Shown: piece after piece, positions 4,080 to 40,075 of the stretch
How the letters are laid out: each line of letters starts with the position of its first letter
Position numbering within the stretch: position 1 is the first letter of the stretch
Source of the DNA: Parcubacteria group bacterium GW2011_GWA2_40_14
GTDB taxonomy: Bacteria; Patescibacteriota; Minisyncoccia; Phycocordibacterales; DATDWN01
DNA length: 42,979 bases
Direction: 5' to 3'
NCBI GenBank assembly: GCA_000996025.1
Contig: LBYF01000002.1
Span: forward strand, 1-42,979
Notes under the pieces: model-generated
Seen by the model: the letters and a program-made list of their open reading frames with translations, nothing else
Databases searched by the model: none
Told to the model about the DNA's origin: nothing
Program-made: the position numbers and the translations under genes

Positions 4080-4886
4080 ATGAAAAATGCTAAAAATAGA
4101 GTTACAGTGGCTGAAAAAACGATAAAAAACCTAAAAAGAAAGGTAATTGAGATAGCTTCAAAATCAGGAGAAGACCACCATATTGCAAGCGCTTTTTCAA
4201 TCATGGATATCTTGTGGGTTCTATATGAAAAAATTCTTTCAATATTCCCAAATAAACCACAGCATCCAGAGCGAGATATTTTCATTTTGAGTAAGGGTCA
4301 GGCATCGCTTGGTCTATATGCCATTCTTCATGAAAAAGGTTTTTTTGACACAAAAACATTGGAAAGTTTCAGCAAATACAACAGCATTCTTGGTGGACAT
4401 CCAATGAAAAATACCAAGGTTGGTATTGAATCATCAACGGGGTCTTTGGGACATGGCATGCCAATAGCTGTGGGTATTGCCCTTGGCTTAAAAATTCAAA
4501 ATAAAAAACAAAAAGTATTTGTACTCATCGGTGATGGAGAGGCCAATGAAGGAACAGTTTGGGAATCAGCCCTCCTTTCTTCTCATCATAAATTAGATAA
4601 CCTATGTTGTATTATTGACCACAACCATTCCACAGACCGGGCCTTATCTATAGATAGCATGAAAGATAAATTTGAATCTTTTGGCTGGAAAGTCTCTACT
4701 GTAGACGGGCACAATCATAAAGAAATAGAAAAATCCTTAAGAACAAAGCATCCCAAACATCCTCTGGCTGTTATAGCTAACACCATAAAAGGCCATGGAG
4801 TTTCCATGATGAAAGACAATCCGGCATGGCATCGCAAGTCTCCGAACAAAGAAGAATTTGAACTGATAATGAAAGAATTAAATTAA
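4080..4886 (+). CDS. Transketolase, N-terminal (ThDP-binding) subunit
   Basis: HHIASAFSIMDILWVLY, ILSKGQASLGLYAIL, TGSLGHGMPIAVGIALG and ThDP motif GDGEANEGTVWESA. Confidence 0.92.
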   Translation: MKNAKNRVTVAEKTIKNLKRKVIEIASKSGEDHHIASAFSIMDILWVLYEKILSIFPNKPQHPERDIFILSKGQASLGLYAILHEKGFFDTKTLESFSKYNSILGGHPMKNTKVGIESSTGSLGHGMPIAVGIALGLKIQNKKQKVFVLIGDGEANEGTVWESALLSSHHKLDNLCCIIDHNHSTDRALSIDSMKDKFESFGWKVSTVDGHNHKEIEKSLRTKHPKHPLAVIANTIKGHGVSMMKDNPAWHRKSPNKEEFELIMKELN

Positions 4887-4895
4887 ATAAATATC

Positions 4896-5669
4896 GTGAG
4901 AAAACAATTTGTAAAAACCGTAGAAGAAATATTGGGCAAAAACGAAAAAGTTGTTCTTCTTCTTGGAGATATAGGAGTTTTTGGATTTAGAGAATCTTTT
5001 AAACTTTACCCCACACGTGTATATAACATAGGAATCCTAGAGCAATCCACTATTAGCGTCGCCTCCGGTTTGAGCATGACTGGCCTTATTCCTATTATAC
5101 ACACTATTGCCCCGTTTATAACCGAAAGATGTTTTGAACAAATCAAAAATGATTTCGGCTATCAAAAAATAGTTGTGCCTGGAACGGCAGAAGAATTTGA
5201 CACATTATTCAAAGAATCATACAACAATGGCAATATAACATATTTCAGATTGAGCGAGAGAAAAAATCAAACTGAAGTAAAGGTAAAATTTGGCAAAGCT
5301 AATGTTATAAAGAAAGGAAAACTGGCAACAGTTATAGCTGTCGGTCCGCTTTTGGATAAAGTTATTTCGGCTACTCTAAATCTAGATGTAACCGTAATAT
5401 ATCTAACAACACTGCGACCATTTGATACTGAAACAGTCAGGAAAAATATCGTTGGAAATAAAGTTTTAATATGTGAACCATATTATAGTGGCGCTATTAC
5501 CTCCAATATAATTAATTCTTCAAAGAATCCTCTGAAAATAGACCTTCTAGGAATACCTCATGAATTTCTGACAAATTACGGTAAAATGGAAGAACACGAT
5601 GAATATATTGGGTTTACAGAAAAAGAAATTGAAAAAAGAGTAAAAAAACTAATACGAAGTAACGAATGA
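4896..5669 (+). CDS. Transketolase, C-terminal subunit
   Basis: RVYNIGILEQSTISVASGLSMTGLIPIIHTIAPFITERCFEQIKND (Pyr domain) plus C-terminal transketolase domain; adjacent to N-terminal subunit; last residues IRSNE encoded by repeat R3. Confidence 0.9.
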   Translation: MRKQFVKTVEEILGKNEKVVLLLGDIGVFGFRESFKLYPTRVYNIGILEQSTISVASGLSMTGLIPIIHTIAPFITERCFEQIKNDFGYQKIVVPGTAEEFDTLFKESYNNGNITYFRLSERKNQTEVKVKFGKANVIKKGKLATVIAVGPLLDKVISATLNLDVTVIYLTTLRPFDTETVRKNIVGNKVLICEPYYSGAITSNIINSSKNPLKIDLLGIPHEFLTNYGKMEEHDEYIGFTEKEIEKRVKKLIRSNE

Positions 5670-10086: not shown

Positions 10087-11061
10087 ATGAGAAATATAAA
10101 CCTTAGCTATGTAATCACTACATACAATAAACTGCCATATTTAAAAAATGTATTGTCTTTACTTATAGAAAATATTAAAGAAGACGAAGAAATAGTTGTG
10201 ACGGACGGAGCTTCCACAGATGGAACTGCCGAGTATCTAAAAAAACTTTTTGATGAGGGAAAAATTCATCAGTATGTTTCTGAAAAAGATTATGGTGAAG
10301 CTCATGGCTGGAACAAAAGCTGGCTTATGGCTAAAGGAGCATTAATAAAAATTATTACAGATGATGATGCTTTTTATTATCCAGGAATACAAAAATGCAA
10401 AGAATTTATGCTCACTCACCCAGAAATAGACGCTATGGGAACAGAGGGATTATTTGCTAAAGTTGTCCATGAATCTGCATTTGTAAACTCGGGAATGTAT
10501 AGTGGAGACCATCCCAGCAAGAGGTCAGATTATACGACAGAATACACGAAATGGAGAGACACCGGAAAACCTTTTGCTTTTTGTGATTTGGGTTGGATGC
10601 TACGAAGAAGTTCTATACCTGTATTTGGTTTATGTGACCCCACATATGTCAGTTTAGACGCAGAGTTTTCCATTAGACTAACTCATGGCAAGGCAAATCT
10701 GGCTTGGTATACAGGAAAAACATGGTCTAGAATATTAAATCCTAACAGTAACAGCGTTTTGTATTATAAAAAAATTTGGCAAGACTATGAAAAACTAAAC
10801 CTCATATATCCCCATTCAAACCTAGAAGACGATCCGTCTCACAAAAAATGGTACAATTTTTTGCCAAAAAATATCAAAGTTCCACTAAAAAAACTACGCG
10901 ATAAAATATTTATAAAAAAACCCGACTCTAGAAACAGCTACACCCCAACAGACGATGACTGGAAAGCTATATTTAAACTGCGAGTAGACGAGCTAACTCA
11001 AGTTTATAATAAAGAAGCGGGTGTATTCATCTACAAGAAGAACCAACTAAATACAAAATGA
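10087..11061 (+). CDS. GT2-family glycosyltransferase
   Basis: LSYVITTYNKLPYLKNVLSLL, IVVTDGASTDGTAEYL, ITDDDAFY (DxD). Confidence 0.88.
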   Translation: MRNINLSYVITTYNKLPYLKNVLSLLIENIKEDEEIVVTDGASTDGTAEYLKKLFDEGKIHQYVSEKDYGEAHGWNKSWLMAKGALIKIITDDDAFYYPGIQKCKEFMLTHPEIDAMGTEGLFAKVVHESAFVNSGMYSGDHPSKRSDYTTEYTKWRDTGKPFAFCDLGWMLRRSSIPVFGLCDPTYVSLDAEFSIRLTHGKANLAWYTGKTWSRILNPNSNSVLYYKKIWQDYEKLNLIYPHSNLEDDPSHKKWYNFLPKNIKVPLKKLRDKIFIKKPDSRNSYTPTDDDWKAIFKLRVDELTQVYNKEAGVFIYKKNQLNTK

Positions 11062-12917
11062 ACAACATCGACAAAACTCTTTTTATAGGAACCAAGTTTT
11101 TTGGACACGACAGCGCTTTGTTTATAGTGGAACCAGATGAAAAAAATATTTTTGGCATGTCTACAGAAAGAATGACGAGGTATAAACACGACCCTCTCTC
11201 CCCCCAAGATGTACTGGAACGCTATATTGAATACAGAAAATTAGATACTAGTAAAGTCAAGCGTATATTTGTTGGATACTCATTTACGACAGACGATTAT
11301 ACTCTACCAGAAGACTTCTACTTTTTTAATAAACATTTTAGGTCTCATTTCAACGTTTCCTTCAAAAAAGATGTTGATCTAAAACTTGTAGAATTCAAGG
11401 GCTATTTTTTAATAAAAAAGATTTATAAACTATTGAGCTCAATCCATGGAATAAAACTGGCTCTGGGACTTTTTTATAACAAAATATTTGGACAAAAAAG
11501 AAAAACTATTAGACTGCATATTCATGACATGTTAGCTAAAAAGTTTCCTAAAGCTAAAATATCTATAGAATGTTATGACCATGAGACTTGCCATGCCATA
11601 TCGTCTCATTATACATCACCATTCCAGGAGGAACTTCTATTTACATTTGACGGTTATGGAGATGGAAACTTCTCAAAAATATTTATTGCAAATAAAGAAA
11701 ATGTCAGAGAAATTGCCACATCAAAATATGAGGAAATAAACATCGGAACAACTGATGAACCGGAAATGCTAATTGGGTCAGTCGGTGTTATATATTCGTA
11801 TTTTACTGGTCTATTGGGTTTTATACAAACTGCTGATGAAGGCAAGGTGGAAGCATTGGCAGCGTATGGAACACCAATCCATAATCTGCTAAATGATATG
11901 GTATCATTATTCTCCATTAACAAAAATAATGGTCTAGAAATAGACCCAAAAAAAGCCGCTATTATACTAAAAAATGACCGTATAAAAAAGATTGTGTCAG
12001 AAAATAAAAAAGAAGATATTGCAGCCAGCGTTCAAAAATTTCTAGAAATCGTCACTAAAAAATACCTCTTGCATATAAAAAACATCGCCCCTTTTAAGGC
12101 GATGTCCTTATCTGGAGGAATTGCCGCAAATGTCATAAACAACCTGGGGATTTTTGAAGAAATAACAGAAAATATTCATGTTATCCCAGCGATGGCTGAT
12201 GATGGTTCTGCTCAAGGCGCCGCTATTATAGCCCTTCTAGACAATGGCTACACATACAACAGTTTATATTGGATGAGAGACCTTATTATGCCCTATTATG
12301 GTACATCCTATACAACTGATGAAATTAAATCTTCCTTTGATTCGCATAAAAAGGAGATTTCTTATGAATTTTTAGGAGAAATTTGGCCAGAAAAAGTCGG
12401 TGAACTTATAGCTCAAGAAAAGATTGGGGCTATTTTCCATGGAAAAATGGAGTGGGGCCCTCGTGCTCTCGGTAATCGCAGTATTTTAGCAAGTCCATTG
12501 AAAATTGATTTTCGAGACAGAATAAACAAAGAGATAAAGCGCAGACCAGCATTTCAACCTTTTTGTCCTTCTATACTAGAAGAGGAACGAGAAAGACTGT
12601 TCGACAAGTCATACGAAAACAAACATATGACATGCGCTTTCCATATGAAAAAAGAATTCGCCGAGCAACTTCAAAGCGCAGTGCATATAGACGGCACTGC
12701 CAGAGCCCAATTTGTAGAAGAGAAAGATAATCCACAATATTATCGCATACTGAAAAAAGTTAAAGAATTGACAGGATTTGGTGTTATAATTAACACATCT
12801 TTCAATAAACACGGTAGAACTATCGTAGAATCCCCTAATGACGCGATAAGAGACTTCATAGACACAGATATGGATTATTTAGTGATAGAAGGATTCCTCG
12901 TCAACCGAAAGAAATAA
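11058..12917 (+). CDS. Carbamoyltransferase (NodU/CmcH family)
   Basis: GHDSALFIVE, FDGYGDGN, LSGGIAANVINN, MEWGPRALGNRSILASP, INTSFNKHGRTIVESPNDAI; ATGA overlap with previous gene. Confidence 0.93.
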   Translation: MNNIDKTLFIGTKFFGHDSALFIVEPDEKNIFGMSTERMTRYKHDPLSPQDVLERYIEYRKLDTSKVKRIFVGYSFTTDDYTLPEDFYFFNKHFRSHFNVSFKKDVDLKLVEFKGYFLIKKIYKLLSSIHGIKLALGLFYNKIFGQKRKTIRLHIHDMLAKKFPKAKISIECYDHETCHAISSHYTSPFQEELLFTFDGYGDGNFSKIFIANKENVREIATSKYEEINIGTTDEPEMLIGSVGVIYSYFTGLLGFIQTADEGKVEALAAYGTPIHNLLNDMVSLFSINKNNGLEIDPKKAAIILKNDRIKKIVSENKKEDIAASVQKFLEIVTKKYLLHIKNIAPFKAMSLSGGIAANVINNLGIFEEITENIHVIPAMADDGSAQGAAIIALLDNGYTYNSLYWMRDLIMPYYGTSYTTDEIKSSFDSHKKEISYEFLGEIWPEKVGELIAQEKIGAIFHGKMEWGPRALGNRSILASPLKIDFRDRINKEIKRRPAFQPFCPSILEEERERLFDKSYENKHMTCAFHMKKEFAEQLQSAVHIDGTARAQFVEEKDNPQYYRILKKVKELTGFGVIINTSFNKHGRTIVESPNDAIRDFIDTDMDYLVIEGFLVNRKK

Positions 12918-13705: not shown

Positions 13706-14030
13706 ATGACCCTGTAGTGAAATTTTAGCTCGATTATGTTCTACACTTATGTTTTAAAAAGTAATAGTGGTGAGTTGTACATAGGATATACTCATGACCT
13801 AAAGCGTAGATTTGTAGAACATAATCAAGGGTTAAATCTTTCGACTAAAAAATACAAACCATGGGTAATTATTTATTACGAATGTTGTCTTAACCAAAGT
13901 GATGCTAAGCGAAGAGAAAGATATCTTAAAACCACACAAGGTGGTAGATTATTGAAGAGACGATTAAAAGATTATTTTTATAAAGAAAGGTCGAAAGATT
14001 TAACAAGCTAAAATTCTACTACCGGGATGA
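13706..14030 (+). mobile_element. GIY-YIG-encoding mobile element with 23-bp imperfect terminal inverted repeats and putative 4-bp ATGA target duplication
   Basis: Left end CCCTGTAGTGAAATTTTAGCTCG (13710-13732); right end CAAGCTAAAATTCTACTACCGGG (14004-14026), 19/23 matches inverted; flanked by ATGA at 13706-13709 and 14027-14030. Confidence 0.72.
13736..14011 (+). CDS. Single-domain GIY-YIG endonuclease (YhbQ/UvrC-N-like)
   Basis: FYTYVLKSNSGELYIGYTHDLKRRFVEHNQG ... YYECCLNQSDAKRRERYLK. Confidence 0.92.
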   Translation: MFYTYVLKSNSGELYIGYTHDLKRRFVEHNQGLNLSTKKYKPWVIIYYECCLNQSDAKRRERYLKTTQGGRLLKRRLKDYFYKERSKDLTS

Positions 14031-14878
14031 TAATCATTAAATTGATGGGTGGACTTGGTAATCAAATGTTTCAATACGCCTTGGGACGCAATTTGTCTTT
14101 GATACACAACACTCCTTTTAAAGTAGACTATTCGTATTTAAAAGTACCGAACCAAAGCCAGAGGACTTTGAGAGTGGGCAACTATAGAACAATATTAGAA
14201 GAAGTTACGGATAAAGAAATTGCTTCTTATACATCTACTTTTCAAAAGATTCTAGATAAAATACGCTCAAATAAAAAAATGATTGTAGAAAAATCAAATA
14301 TTTTTGACCCGAACATTTTACTCCAAAATGACGGATATTTTTATGGATATTGGAATGACGAGAAATACTTCGAAGCAAACGAGAAAATAATAAGGGATGA
14401 TTTTAAGCTTAAAGCACCTTTTGGAAAAAGTGCAGAAGCGATTTTAGAAAGAATAAATGTTCTATCAAATTCAACTAGTATACATATTCGTCGTGGAGAC
14501 TATGTTTCTATCAAAAAAATTGCTGATACGCATGGAACTCTTCCATTCTCATATTATGAAAATGCTATAGATAAAATTAAAGACAAATTTCCCGATGTTA
14601 CATTCTTCGTTTTTTCTGATGATATTGAATGGGCAAAGAAAAATTTTCCAAGAAAATATTCAATTATTTTTGTCTCAAATCCTCTTATACCAGATTACGA
14701 AGAACTCATGCTAATGAGTCTCTGCAAACACAACATCACTGCAAATAGCACATTTAGTTGGTGGGCAGCATGGTTAAATGCAAATCCAAATAAGATTGTT
14801 GTTGCGCCAAAAAAATGGTTTGTTGATGAAACCAAATATAATGATGATTTAATCCCGGAAAATTGGATAAAACTATAA
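14027..14878 (+). CDS. GT11-family (alpha-1,2-fucosyltransferase-like) glycosyltransferase
   Basis: MIIIKLMGGLGNQMFQYALGRNL; SIHIRRGDYVS; NSTFSWWAAWL. Confidence 0.93.
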   Translation: MIIIKLMGGLGNQMFQYALGRNLSLIHNTPFKVDYSYLKVPNQSQRTLRVGNYRTILEEVTDKEIASYTSTFQKILDKIRSNKKMIVEKSNIFDPNILLQNDGYFYGYWNDEKYFEANEKIIRDDFKLKAPFGKSAEAILERINVLSNSTSIHIRRGDYVSIKKIADTHGTLPFSYYENAIDKIKDKFPDVTFFVFSDDIEWAKKNFPRKYSIIFVSNPLIPDYEELMLMSLCKHNITANSTFSWWAAWLNANPNKIVVAPKKWFVDETKYNDDLIPENWIKL

Positions 14879-19968: not shown

Positions 19969-20754
19969 TTAGAGTTGTTTTTTTAGCGCTTGCCATGATG
20001 CATCAAAATCTGCATTGGTTTCAATTGTTCGCTGACTATAGAGCATTGCTTGGAGTACAGCAGGTTGAATTGTTACAATATTTGCACCAGCAGCAAAGGC
20101 CTGGCCAATCTGTGATACATTGCGAATACTGCCAACAATCAACTTTGGAATATCATATCCACCACTTTTTAGAAAATTTATAAGCCCCTCTGTAATTTTT
20201 GCTGGATGAGAATTTACATCAGTTAGCTGTCCAAGGATTGGATGATTTTTCTGAAACTCATTACTAGTTCTATATTTCTCTTGATCCTCAATACTGCGAG
20301 CCCAAAATAAACTAACGAATGACGGTGTTGGGTGATTTCTGATTGCTAGTGATGCGATTACTAGTTGTTCAAAGTTCATCATTGCAGTAACGTTCACAGG
20401 AATCTTTAAGTCGCCAAGTTTTTTTATAACATTTAAACACTTTATGTCCGAGGGAATCATTGGGACCTTAACAATAATATTCCTGGCAATTTGTCTGTAT
20501 TTTTTTGCTTCGCTGACCATTTGTTCAATACTGGCAGTACTATCCGTAAGCTCAATGGAAACCGGTTTGTCATTCATTATCTTACAAATCTTTTTGATTG
20601 TCGGGATTACTTGTTTCAAAGTCAATCCATCTTTTAGCATAATGCTTTGATTTGTGGTAACGCCATCAATAATCCCCGTAGCGTTCCATTTTTCAATTTC
20701 TTTTACACTGGATGAGTCAAGAAAAATACTGCGGTTATAATCAATTTTTTTCAT
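19969..20754 (-). CDS. Transaldolase-family protein
   Basis: IFLDSSSVKEIEKWNATGIIDGVTTNQSIM; NIIVKVPM Schiff-base Lys motif; NVTAMMNFEQ. Confidence 0.9.
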   Translation of the reverse strand: MKKIDYNRSIFLDSSSVKEIEKWNATGIIDGVTTNQSIMLKDGLTLKQVIPTIKKICKIMNDKPVSIELTDSTASIEQMVSEAKKYRQIARNIIVKVPMIPSDIKCLNVIKKLGDLKIPVNVTAMMNFEQLVIASLAIRNHPTPSFVSLFWARSIEDQEKYRTSNEFQKNHPILGQLTDVNSHPAKITEGLINFLKSGGYDIPKLIVGSIRNVSQIGQAFAAGANIVTIQPAVLQAMLYSQRTIETNADFDASWQALKKQL

Positions 20755-20784
20755 ATTATTACTTTTCCTTTTTTAGATTATAAG

Positions 20785-20793
20785 TGATATAAT
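20785..20793 (+). promoter_or_regulatory. Extended -10 promoter candidate TGATATAAT for the gmhB-like/hddC-like pair
   Basis: TG-N-TATAAT about 26 nt upstream of ATG 20819, in the divergent gap with the transaldolase gene. Confidence 0.55.
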
Positions 20794-20818
20794 ATACTCT
20801 TAATTAGCAATTTGCAAT

Positions 20819-21409
20819 ATGAAAAATAGGGCTTTATTCATAGATAGAGATGGCGTAATCAACCATATGATATTGCAAAAGAATGGCAACTTTGATTCCC
20901 CGCAAAATCCCGCCCAAATCATGCTTGTGGATGGCGTTGTTGATGTAATTTTACTAATGAATAATCTAAATATTCCTGTTATAGAAGTATCCAACCAACC
21001 CGGAGTTGCCCTTGGAAAAATGAATTGGCAACTTCTAGAGAATATAGAAAACAAGATTCATTCTTTACTTAATGAACGAGGAGTACATATACATAAATCT
21101 TATCGATGCTTCCACCATCCAGAATCTGGTATAAGTGACCTTAAGATGATTTGTCAGTGTCGAAAACCGAATCCCGGACTTTTGCTACAGGCAACCTCTG
21201 AATACAAACTAGACCTTGAACAATGTATCATTTTGGGAGATAATGCTACTGATATGGAAGCTGGCAGAAAAATCGGGTGCAGGACCATACTCTTTTTTCA
21301 TACAAACGACCTGCCACACAAGATAAAGACTAAAGAAACATATCCCGCTGAATTCAGAGTTCGCTCACATGCCGAAGTTATTCCTATATTAAAAAAATTA
21401 TTTTTATGA
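20819..21409 (+). CDS. gmhB: D-glycero-D-manno-heptose 1,7-bisphosphate phosphatase-like HAD protein
   Basis: FIDRDGVIN; CFHHPESG...CQCRKPNPGLL zinc-loop motif; GDNATDMEAGRKIG. Confidence 0.87.
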   Translation: MKNRALFIDRDGVINHMILQKNGNFDSPQNPAQIMLVDGVVDVILLMNNLNIPVIEVSNQPGVALGKMNWQLLENIENKIHSLLNERGVHIHKSYRCFHHPESGISDLKMICQCRKPNPGLLLQATSEYKLDLEQCIILGDNATDMEAGRKIGCRTILFFHTNDLPHKIKTKETYPAEFRVRSHAEVIPILKKLFL

Positions 21410-22128
21410 AAGCTATAATTGTTGCAGGTGGTACAGGAGGACGACTGCGACCGCTGACTGATAACATTCCGAAGCCGATGATTGAAATTTCTGGTAAACC
21501 CATTCTGGAGCATATCATCAATTTTTTAGGCAAAAATGGTGTTAAAGATATTATTCTTGCCTTATGTCATTTACCCGAGCCAATCATGAATTATTTCAAA
21601 GATGGCAAAGATTTTGGTGTAAATATCACCTATGTTTTTGAGGACCCAAAAGTACCTATGGGCACTGCAGGGGCAATCTTCTCCGCCCGCAAGCACATAT
21701 CTGATACATTTATTGTGGAATACGCAGACACATTAAGAGAACTTGATGTTGAAGAAATGATAAAGTTTCATAAAGCATCTGGAAGCTTTGCCACTATTAA
21801 TGCATATCAACATCGTGGCATTAATCATAAAAGTACTTTGCATTTTACCGAAGATAATATACTTACTAAATTTGAAGAACGTCAAACCTCACAAAACCTA
21901 GAGAAAGGTTTTGCTTGGTCAAACGCTGCCTTTTATATATTCAATCCAGAAATATTTGAATATATCAACGAAAATACAAAATCAGATTTTTCACATGATA
22001 TTTTCCCAAAATTATTATCACTGAACAAAAAGATTTCTGTATTTCCCACTACAAGTTATTTAATGGATATCGGAACGATAGAAAGTTTAGAGAAAGCTAG
22101 AGAGGATATGGCTAAAAAGTCTGCCTAA
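21406..22128 (+). CDS. hddC: Heptose-1-phosphate guanylyltransferase-like nucleotidyltransferase
   Basis: MKAIIVAGGTGGRLRPLTDNIPKPMIEISGKPILEH; ATGA overlap with gmhB; clustered with gmhA/hddA-like genes. Confidence 0.75.
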   Translation: MKAIIVAGGTGGRLRPLTDNIPKPMIEISGKPILEHIINFLGKNGVKDIILALCHLPEPIMNYFKDGKDFGVNITYVFEDPKVPMGTAGAIFSARKHISDTFIVEYADTLRELDVEEMIKFHKASGSFATINAYQHRGINHKSTLHFTEDNILTKFEERQTSQNLEKGFAWSNAAFYIFNPEIFEYINENTKSDFSHDIFPKLLSLNKKISVFPTTSYLMDIGTIESLEKAREDMAKKSA

Positions 22129-22709
22129 CTTCGTAATTTCGGATGTGTGACAATTGAGTGCCAGATGACAGCTTGAAAACTTTCCGAAAGTGGTGTAATC
22201 AGTTCAGGTTCCGAAATGGGAAGATGAATTGATACTTTTGCCACTTTTTTGGTATAACCTCCATCACGACTTACAATACCAAGAATTGGACTACCCACTT
22301 TTTTTGCAAATTCCAAAGCTTTAACAATATTAACGCTTATGTTTTTTTCTATATTTCCGCCACCAACAGAAAAGACCATAACCACATCATTTGAACTTAG
22401 TTGGCTAACCTCTAACCACTTATTAAAGACAGTATCAAAGCCATCATCATTCGCGCGGGCTGTCAATTCAGAGACATTATCCGTAGGGGCATAAGCTTCT
22501 ATCTTGCAAATTTTGCGAAAATCATTTACTGCGTGAGAGCAGTTTCCGGCAGACCCGCCAACACCGAGTAAGAAAAGTCTGCCGCCTTTTTTCTTGAGAT
22601 TGACTAGGACTTTTATAGTTGCCTCAATTTCTTGTCGATTAATTTGACCTATGAGCTTGACTGCAGCATCTAGGTACATCCCAATATAATTTGTCATTTT
22701 TGTTTGCAT
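22125..22709 (-). CDS. gmhA: SIS-domain sedoheptulose-7-phosphate isomerase-like protein
   Basis: GGRLFLLGVGGSAGNCSHAVNDFRK; VVMVFSVGGGNIEKNIS; neighbours. Confidence 0.8.
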   Translation of the reverse strand: MQTKMTNYIGMYLDAAVKLIGQINRQEIEATIKVLVNLKKKGGRLFLLGVGGSAGNCSHAVNDFRKICKIEAYAPTDNVSELTARANDDGFDTVFNKWLEVSQLSSNDVVMVFSVGGGNIEKNISVNIVKALEFAKKVGSPILGIVSRDGGYTKKVAKVSIHLPISEPELITPLSESFQAVIWHSIVTHPKLRS

Positions 22710-22713
22710 AATG

Positions 22714-23772
22714 TTAAAAATTCAGTACAACTTTACTACCTTCCATATCAAATCGCACCTTCGTCTCTTCCAAACCTATTTCTTTCATCCTTTTTCTAAA
22801 AGCCGACTTATTATCTTTAACATAAAAGACAAACCAACCTCCGCCTCCTGCACCCATTATCTTTCCTCCAGAAGCTCCACTCTTCATGGCTTCAGCATAC
22901 CATCTGTCTATCTGGGAATTAGAAACATGCTTTGATAATGTTTTCTTTATCTGCCAATGTTTGTCAAGGGTAACGCCAAAACTATCTACATCACCCTTCA
23001 AAAGATATTCTTTAGCTTTTTGACCTAATTTTTTTATATCATCCAGAGCTTTAATATGCCTTGCTGTAGCATGCTCTTTCTGGTCCGCAAGTGCTAAACT
23101 GGTATCCCTTAATATACCCGTTCTAAAAAACAAAAGGTTTGATTCCAATTCTAGAATTGTATGTAAAGATAAATGCAAAGGATAAACTGTAACCTTCCCT
23201 GTCGTATCCCTTTCAAAATATTTAAAACCTCCAAGAGCAACGATGTATTGGTCTTGCGGACCAATAAAATCACGACCTATCTTAAAACGCTCAATAGAAA
23301 AAGCTTTCTTTGCCAAATCAAGCTGTGAAATAGATTCTCTCTTTAAGCAATATAAAGCATTCAATAGTCCAACCTCTAGAGCTGCTGAACCACCTAAACC
23401 AGACCTTCCTGACACTTCCGAGTTAATATTGAGACTTACTCCGCTTAGTATTCCCGTGTGTTCAAGACAGGCTTTAACATATGGGTTTGGAATATCTTTG
23501 TATGAATGGCCTTGCGTGGCTTCCTGGCCATATGAGTAACTTATAAAGTTCGGATTCTCGCCCATAGTCAGTGTCACAACTAAATAGCGATTAATGGAAA
23601 CACTGACCCAAGCTCCACCGTGAAGATTACTGTACCAATCAACATCTGTTCCCCCACCAGAGAGTGTAATGCGCATAGGTGTTTGAGTAACTATGACCGC
23701 CCTATCGCGAGAATTATGAGCATAGTAGTTTTCCTTGGGATTTTTACCCATCTTTTTCTGAATTTTTGACAT
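22714..23772 (-). CDS. hddA: D-glycero-D-manno-heptose-7-phosphate kinase-like GHMP kinase (ORF track extends to 23862; MSKIQKK at 23772 preferred)
   Basis: QTPMRITLSGGGTDVDWYSNLHGGAWVSVSINRYL; GRSGLGGSAALEVGLLNAL; SGASGGKIMGAGGGGWFVFY. Confidence 0.85.
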   Translation of the reverse strand: MSKIQKKMGKNPKENYYAHNSRDRAVIVTQTPMRITLSGGGTDVDWYSNLHGGAWVSVSINRYLVVTLTMGENPNFISYSYGQEATQGHSYKDIPNPYVKACLEHTGILSGVSLNINSEVSGRSGLGGSAALEVGLLNALYCLKRESISQLDLAKKAFSIERFKIGRDFIGPQDQYIVALGGFKYFERDTTGKVTVYPLHLSLHTILELESNLLFFRTGILRDTSLALADQKEHATARHIKALDDIKKLGQKAKEYLLKGDVDSFGVTLDKHWQIKKTLSKHVSNSQIDRWYAEAMKSGASGGKIMGAGGGGWFVFYVKDNKSAFRKRMKEIGLEETKVRFDMEGSKVVLNF

Positions 23773-23865
23773 AAGGGAATTATAACTATGATAGCGACGA
23801 ATGCAAGTAAATATTATATAATTGCTTTTGTTCCAAAAAAATGTTTTAATGAAATAATACAAAAA

Positions 23866-38359: not shown

Positions 38360-40075
38360 TTACTTTTTACGTTTGCATAAATATTGTCCCAAAACAATAT
38401 AATCCATTTCTGTGTTCAAAAAACATTTTATAGCATCATTTGGGGTGCAAACAATCGGTTCGCCCTTAACATTAAACGAGGTGTTTAAGAGAAGACTTAC
38501 TCCGGTTAATTTCTTGAACTCGTTAATAAGATTCCAATATCTGGGATTGGTCTGTTTGGAAACTGTTTGGATTCGAGCAGTGCCATCAACGTGTGTTACT
38601 GCTGGAATGATTTTCTGTTTATCTGCACGTACCGGACAAACAAAAAGCATGTAAGGTGAGATGCCAGAATCAAAGTATTGCTCCACATCTTCTTCCAAAA
38701 CAGAGGGAGCAAACGGGCGATATGGCTCTCTAAATTTTATCTTACGGTTTACAATATCTTTCATCTCTCTCCGTCGCGGATCTGCAAGGATACTGCGATT
38801 GCCAAGCGAACGTGGCCCCCACTCCATCCTGCCCTGATACCAGCCGACCACATTTCCTTCCGAAATTAAACGTGCCGCTTCTTGTTCTATATCTTCTCGA
38901 ATTTCATAATCTAGCTCAAATTTTTTTATAGCTTCTAGAACCGCCCTCTCACTATACTCTGGTCCCCAATACGCATGCTCCATTTGAAAAGTTCGCGGTT
39001 TGTCTAAAATATGATGCCAAATATAAAAACAAACACCTATCGTGCAACCGGGATCATAAGCCGATGGTTGAATCCAAATATTATCAAATATTTTTTTCTG
39101 TAATAACTTCCCATTAGCGGAGGAATTTAGGGCCACACCACCAGCCATAACCAAGTTTTTCTCTCCAGTATTTTTTTGTAACCAAAAAGCCATATCAAAA
39201 AAAATATCTTCCAAGACTTTTTGTCCGCTAGAGGCATAATGTTTATATTCTCCCGTTTGCACAGAATTCTCGTCCGCACAAGCTGGACCAAATTCTTTTA
39301 TCCATTTATCGGAATAAGCAAAGTTACCACCTAAATGAAAAGAAAACCAAGAATTATCGTTTAGCAATTTTCCTTCTTTGAACTTAATCATTTTGGAAAA
39401 AACATCATAGTATTTTGGCTCTCCATAAGAAGCCAGGCCCATAACTCTATATTCATCTGCAAGCATTTTGTATCCCAGATACTGTGTAAGCGCTCCATAA
39501 TAAAGACCGAGCGAATGTGGCAAATAAGTTCTTTTAATAACTCTCATTTTATTGCCATTACCAATACCCAAAAGAGTGGTGCAAGACTCCCCGCAGGCAT
39601 CCACAGTTAGAATAGCCGCTTTTTCGTATGGAGAAACAAAAAAGGCGCTCGATGCATGGGCTATGTGATGTTCAATATAATAAAACTTTCCATTAAACCC
39701 AAGTTTTCGCAATTTGAATGGAACAGCTAAATGCTGAAAAAGTGTAAAAACAGATCCTCGCCACTCCTTATCATTCTTAAATGTAGATAGGGAGCGTGGA
39801 AAATATCGAATTAGCCACCAAATGCGCTTTAAGAGGCCTTTCCATGGTTGCCAATAAAATCCGGCATATTGCACATCGGAAAGTTTTATACCTGTTTCTT
39901 TTAGACAATACTCTATAGCGCTTATAGGAAATCGGCTGTCATATTTTTTGCGAGTGAAACGCTCTTCTTCAACTGCGGCAATAAGAACACCGTCTGCAGT
40001 AAGCGAGGCCGCGCTCTGATGAATATTGCAACTAATGCCTAAAATATAAATTGGATTCTTTGTATTCATTCTCAA
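38360..40075 (-). CDS. Carbamoyltransferase (NodU/CmcH family)
   Basis: EEERFTRKKYDSRFP; EHHIAHASSAFF; VMAGGVALNSSANGKL; MEWGPRSLGNRSILADPRR; LNTSFNVKGEPIVCTPNDAI. Confidence 0.94.
   Translation of the reverse strand: MRMNTKNPIYILGISCNIHQSAASLTADGVLIAAVEEERFTRKKYDSRFPISAIEYCLKETGIKLSDVQYAGFYWQPWKGLLKRIWWLIRYFPRSLSTFKNDKEWRGSVFTLFQHLAVPFKLRKLGFNGKFYYIEHHIAHASSAFFVSPYEKAAILTVDACGESCTTLLGIGNGNKMRVIKRTYLPHSLGLYYGALTQYLGYKMLADEYRVMGLASYGEPKYYDVFSKMIKFKEGKLLNDNSWFSFHLGGNFAYSDKWIKEFGPACADENSVQTGEYKHYASSGQKVLEDIFFDMAFWLQKNTGEKNLVMAGGVALNSSANGKLLQKKIFDNIWIQPSAYDPGCTIGVCFYIWHHILDKPRTFQMEHAYWGPEYSERAVLEAIKKFELDYEIREDIEQEAARLISEGNVVGWYQGRMEWGPRSLGNRSILADPRRREMKDIVNRKIKFREPYRPFAPSVLEEDVEQYFDSGISPYMLFVCPVRADKQKIIPAVTHVDGTARIQTVSKQTNPRYWNLINEFKKLTGVSLLLNTSFNVKGEPIVCTPNDAIKCFLNTEMDYIVLGQYLCKRKK

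Follow-up and report, generated by a model that had tools for sequence, protein, structure and literature searches.

A small ORF for a single-domain GIY-YIG protein separates a DUF268 gene from a GT11 gene in the stretch of DNA analysed here (hereafter the window, 42,979 nucleotides), which makes up contig C2 of G000, a genome of 637 kb assembled into 26 contigs. The question raised by this locus is whether the ORF is an ordinary chromosomal gene or the enzyme of a very small mobile element. The initial annotation favored the second answer on the basis of terminal inverted repeats, flanking ATGA tetranucleotides and a 276-bp GIY-YIG ORF, and all three are present at the positions summarized in Table 1. 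The left end reads CCCTGTAGTGAAATTTTAGCTCG and the reverse complement of the right end reads CCCGGTAGTAGAATTTTAGCTTG, the two matching at 19 of 23 positions. With up to 3 mismatches allowed, the window contains two matches to the end motif and 100 dinucleotide shuffles contain none. The GT11 gene (14027-14878) starts with the ATG of the right duplication copy. The GIY-YIG ORF is the only one inside the element, from which the known transposase types (DDE, HUH, Tyr/Ser recombinase, Cas1) are absent. Inverted ends, a short duplication and empty orthologous sites are all found, as in DNA transposons with terminal inverted repeats and target duplications.

Table 1 Features of the element and of its immediate flanks in the window
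Feature	Position	Strand	Evidence
Left target-duplication copy, ATGA, original GT11 start codon region	13706..13709	+	sequence; empty site in G004
Whole mobile element, 317 bp	13710..14026	+	ends, duplication, second genomic copy with the same ends, empty sites
Left terminal inverted repeat, GA type, outer stem 5' arm	13710..13732	+	19/23 match with 14004-14026; homologous ends elsewhere
GA half of the two-base outer-stem mismatch	13719..13720	+	partner CT at 14016-14017; end-type counts
Inner hairpin 1, 5' arm, overlapping the ORF start	13729..13745	+	inverted-repeat search; pairs with 13813-13829
ORF, single-domain GIY-YIG nuclease, 91 aa, 276 bp	13736..14011	+	translation; PF01541 match
Inner hairpin 1, 3' arm, codons of conserved E-H-N-Q	13813..13829	+	inverted-repeat search; conservation
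Inner hairpin 2, 5' arm	13831..13845	+	inverted-repeat search; pairs with 13990-14004
Inner hairpin 2, 3' arm, C-terminal codons, reaching almost to the stop	13990..14004	+	inverted-repeat search
Right terminal inverted repeat, AG type, outer stem 3' arm	14004..14026	+	sequence match; motif search; genome scan
Right target-duplication copy, ATGA	14027..14030	+	sequence; empty site in G004

The removal of the element and of one ATGA had been predicted to rejoin the DUF268 and GT11 genes, and this junction exists in an empty state in G004, a genome of the same genus, where the orthologous DUF268 stop is followed by TTTTAAAAAGGG and then by ATGATTATAATTAAA (GT11). A second copy in G000, on contig C15, shares its ends and 86% protein identity with the first and is likewise bordered by duplicated ATGA; it sits on the start codon of a PBP1A-like gene. 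This start is devoid of the element in nine genomes of the same genus, and most of the empty starts are preceded by a recognisably conserved promoter (e.g. TATCATAAATATGTTAGAATACGA before the ATG). A third insertion lies at the ftsE start in genome G010, a position that is empty in seven genomes; in G002, one contig starts within an element directly upstream of ftsE. The search for empty sites that had been proposed was therefore successful for three different insertions, and the parallel search for the same ends with and without the ORF retrieved copies in this genome and widely elsewhere. As judged from these genome comparisons, the empty sites, 4-bp duplications, dispersed copies and short ORF-less relatives show that the element is mobile. 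Since the end-motif pairs of G000 belong only to its two GIY-YIG elements, no larger transposon with these ends is seen in that genome. Tandem copies separated by one duplication also occur. Such arrays, with elements 3-4 bases apart, were observed at L077, L087, L100, L107, L111 and L135, and they give the impression that a duplication already in place serves as the target of new copies.

The 91-aa protein matches the GIY-YIG profile (PF01541, E=5.4e-16) and displays the conserved Tyr, Tyr, Arg and Glu of this nuclease superfamily: the catalytic residues Y5, Y15, R25 and E61, together with the His of the Tyr/Tyr/Arg/His/Glu set, are invariant across 61 sequences. Its structure model has a pLDDT of 93.5, and its profile and fold matches are UPF0213 proteins, which are the nearest solved relatives, and the branched-DNA nuclease SLX1; the score against group I intron endonucleases is weak. 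Between the two G000 copies dN/dS is ~0.12, in codons that are also constrained by the stems, and the substitution pattern indicates that the ORF is under purifying selection. Two additional GIY-YIG ORFs of G000 (L003 and L004, on contig C21) lie inside an apparent rRNA operon and do not have the element's ends; one of them is followed by a LAGLIDADG-like ORF, and both are probable introns.

A total of 85,462 species genomes were scanned with a protein alignment, which returned 247 related stretches, and the best 80 loci were examined for ends. These loci were found by the protein alone, and 61 of the 80 passed a strict inverted-end test around the ORF. The carriers span many candidate phyla (Nomura-, Zambryski-, Gottesman-, Kazan-, Uhr- and Saccharibacteria, among others). 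Symmetrical CCCCGTTAG ends are found in relatives that reach Planctomycetes and Neomarinimicrobiota, and the Verrucomicrobia relatives have another end type. In a sample of 20 more remote relatives, taken from related genomes, further inverted-end types, several of them starting with CCC, lie beside about half of the ORFs. Distant ORFs framed in this way, for instance by CCCGTTAGAGA, CCCGTACGAAAT or CCCCCACACC (L280, L282, L284 and L291-L293), probably represent additional families of such elements. The scan of viral contigs and of plasmid and phage collections found no relatives of the element.

The GA end is present in 32 of the 397 genomes of the order, with ~10 times more matches than the reversed control. 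The collection amounts to 109 distinct elements; the ORF-less ones number 50 and are 59-144 nt long. When the boundary is set 4 nt outside GTAG...CTAC, an exact 4-bp duplication surrounds 34 of the 50 ORF-less elements and 38 of 66 ORF elements, and those of the latter include TATG, TGAA, ATGA, TACG, TGAG and TGGA, among others. A sticky-end re-ligation of a fixed ATGA overhang was considered and rejected, since related copies within one genome have different duplications. Every genome holding ORF-less elements also has GIY-YIG relatives, but this co-presence is weak and uninformative, given that 76 of 148 related genomes carry such relatives anyway.

An ATG on the ORF strand stands at the right boundary of 43 of 65 ORF elements, and 34 of these 43 are start-like, compared with 11% of 11,314 ATGs in an approximate control set; on the other strand, no boundary ATG has an ORF of at least 50 codons. 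About one third of the ORF elements sit away from any ATG. ORF-less elements of 120-145 nt are also found at start codons, with a preferred orientation (27 vs 4). A -10-like box lies upstream of 33 of 77 target ATGs, most often ~6 nt away, vs 14% of start-like controls (p=2e-8, again with an approximate control set). The duplication restores the host start codon; where it reads TGNN, this role falls to the element's last A. These boundaries show that the element inserts for the most part at start codons, in many cases shortly downstream of a -10 box.

The ends have a second peculiarity. Of the GTAG-type ORF elements, 55 have the two standard end types, and every one of them carries GA on one end and AG on the other, an asymmetry present in both orientations relative to the ORF; one further element (L122) has GA/AT ends. 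A search that was unconstrained at the mismatch bases recovered 109 AG/GA pairs, one AG/GC and one AT/GA, and neither GA/GA nor AG/AG. On the protein tree, the position of the GA end relative to the ORF changes 11 times, at least five of them forced, and always in concert. The remaining outer stem is paired in 95.6% of cells, vs 74.4% in shuffles, and has changes on both sides at 12 of 17 pairs, in a set of elements partly selected by stem score. These comparisons show that the ends keep a stem that is paired and yet always mismatched.

Two internal inverted repeats, which the initial annotation had missed, would allow the whole element to fold into the outer stem and two inner hairpins at a three-way junction. 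Hairpin 1 is found in 48 of 55 elements and hairpin 2 in 32 of 55. In hairpin 1, the ORF start region pairs with the codons of the conserved E-H-N, and the non-coding base -3 covaries with the wobble base of the Asn codon (A-T 45, G-C 8, p = 4e-8). The single-strand DNA fold of the window element has z = -7.1, and that of an 84-nt ORF-less relative z = -9.3. An Rfam search of the element gave nothing near a gathering score and no described structured RNA family. A single-stranded intermediate is without firm support: GC skew, used as a test of strand-specific (lagging-strand) movement, could not separate the end polarities (p=0.31), and G.T versus A.C mismatches favor one strand only marginally (37:22, p=0.07).

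Several scenarios may explain these observations. One is that the ORF is a chromosomal repair gene of the UPF0213/YhbQ type whose flanking repeats are regulatory or fortuitous. This is the context of its closest solved relatives, the UPF0213 proteins, but empty sites, target duplications, dispersed copies and covarying ends refute it, and we give it practically no credence. Another is that of a free-standing GIY-YIG homing gene, in which the enzyme cuts an allele without the element and homologous repair then copies the element into it. Homing endonucleases classically have the GIY-YIG fold, and the weak score against group I intron endonucleases as well as the two ORFs in the apparent rRNA operon point in the same direction. 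Homing, however, requires allelic homology, generates no duplication of the target and can do without inverted ends, whereas the copies studied here lie at unrelated start codons of unrelated genes with the varied duplications listed above, and allelic insertion without duplication is not what these elements display. Transposition is preferred since the targets share only a short ATG-containing core, the duplications vary (3-5 bp) and ORF-less relatives have spread. Thus, of the "minimal transposable/homing element" originally suggested, the transposable part is retained and the homing part appears very improbable.

A more serious competitor is a MITE-like element moved in trans by a host transposase (e.g. 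of Y1/RAYT or DDE type), the GIY-YIG protein then being a passenger or a parasitic homing endonuclease. Short ORF-less copies also move, RAYT-type Y1 transposases are present in 12 of 14 carrier genomes, and the combination of GTAG and a GA mismatch recalls the REP hairpins, for some families of which a stem GA mismatch is reported (PMC3733652). Yet, none of the 20 Y1 loci examined bears the ends of our element: palindromes of a different sequence lie beside most of them, a few have no clear repeat and one has no ORF. No Y1 match was found in carrier genomes G137 and G157 (95% and 99% complete), the ends are coupled to the GIY-YIG ORF across many candidate phyla, and that ORF is under purifying selection. 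A Y1 (PF01797) transposase within the element or, among the loci examined, tied to it by shared ends, as in REP/RAYT or IS200/IS605 systems, was not found. A host RAYT is hence disfavored as the mobiliser, and mobilization in trans as a whole seems unlikely. As an observation on these genes themselves, most of the RAYT-type Y1 genes of Patescibacteria at L246-L249 and L251-L265 have palindromes of other sequence on both sides, a TIRYT-like arrangement.

The reading that we consider probable is that Patescibacteria harbor a minimal autonomous DNA transposon whose movement is driven by its own single-domain GIY-YIG nuclease. That this protein is the element's enzyme, as the initial annotation had it, is strongly suggested by comparative data, from which we infer both the mobilising role of the nuclease and the use of folded DNA as its substrate. 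The element, as an extruded cruciform or exposed single strand, would fold into a three-way junction made up of the outer stem with its invariant GA/CT mismatch and one or two inner hairpins. With SLX1 among its solved relatives, the nuclease would recognise this fold, cut 4 nt outside GTAG...CTAC and make a 4-nt staggered cut at the target start codon, and gap filling would then yield the target duplication. Since GIY-YIG enzymes are known to act as hydrolases, cutting alone would not account for the joining step, which would need host repair or a putative strand-transfer activity of the nuclease. By landing between a host promoter and a start codon, the element could have its ORF expressed by that promoter, and the host gene would regain its start codon from the duplication or from the last A of the element.

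REP/REPIN sequences with their RAYT (TnpA-REP) and the TIR-flanked TIRYT are also short palindromic mobile DNA with GTAG, ORF-less copies and intergenic sites, but their enzyme is a Y1 HUH transposase instead of a GIY-YIG nuclease, the GTAG of REP is an unpaired tag instead of part of the stem, and the Y1 genes of the same genomes have different ends. REP/RAYT elements have no 4-bp target duplication and are not known to prefer start codons, two features that characterize the window-type elements. IS200/IS605 and IscB/HEARO elements share subterminal hairpins with ours; their TnpA, TnpB and IscB are absent from it. IS200/IS605 or REP/RAYT have a fixed adjacent tetranucleotide and no duplication, in contrast to the true duplications of varying sequence reported here. 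An ATGA-type target motif exists in some IS200/IS605 and IscB/HEARO elements. I-TevI and Seg, which are intron-borne or free-standing homing endonucleases, belong to the same nuclease superfamily and spread selfishly; unlike them, the window-type elements have inverted ends, a target duplication and unrelated target genes, and the 91-aa protein has no extra DNA-binding domain. The single-domain SLX1 and UPF0213 proteins have the same fold and catalytic residues but correspond to host repair genes or genes of unknown role, outside mobile elements. Bacterial MITEs and DDE insertion sequences resemble our elements in their inverted ends, short duplication and non-autonomous derivatives, and differ in that our elements have no DDE transposase, obligatorily mismatched ends and a three-way-junction fold. 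Finally, Penelope-like retroelements contain a GIY-YIG nuclease within a mobile element, but a reverse transcriptase is lacking in the window element.

To our knowledge, the transposition enzymes of prokaryotes rely on a few chemistries (DDE, HUH, Tyr/Ser recombinases, Cas1 and reverse transcriptases), and searches of the open-access literature, which leaves subscription papers and preprints aside, found no report of bacterial GIY-YIG elements of this kind. Our analysis suggests that GIY-YIG enzymes, for which no role as bacterial transposases had been described, are able to drive the transposition of DNA. A more specific proposal, offered tentatively, is that of a new transposase class: a ~90-residue GIY-YIG nuclease that may recognise its own three-way-junction fold via the obligatory mismatch and insert at transcription starts or at the start codons of leaderless genes, perhaps using opened promoter DNA. 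If the element is indeed moved by its GIY-YIG nuclease, another transposition chemistry would be added, the element, at 317 bp, would rank with the smallest autonomous transposons, a function could be assigned to many small GIY-YIG ORFs of Patescibacteria, and a compact DNA mobility system targeting start codons would be at hand. The obligatory mismatch makes the folded-DNA mechanism directly testable.

Some other genes of the window deserve mention. Those at 19969-23862, named by eye from their translations (transaldolase-like, GmhB-like HAD phosphatase, nucleotidyltransferase, phosphoheptose isomerase and GHMP kinase), look like a pathway for nucleotide-activated heptose, and transketolase is split in two halves at 4080-5669. 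Two NodU/CmcH-like carbamoyltransferase genes (11058-12917 and 38360-40075) are found in one surface-polysaccharide locus.
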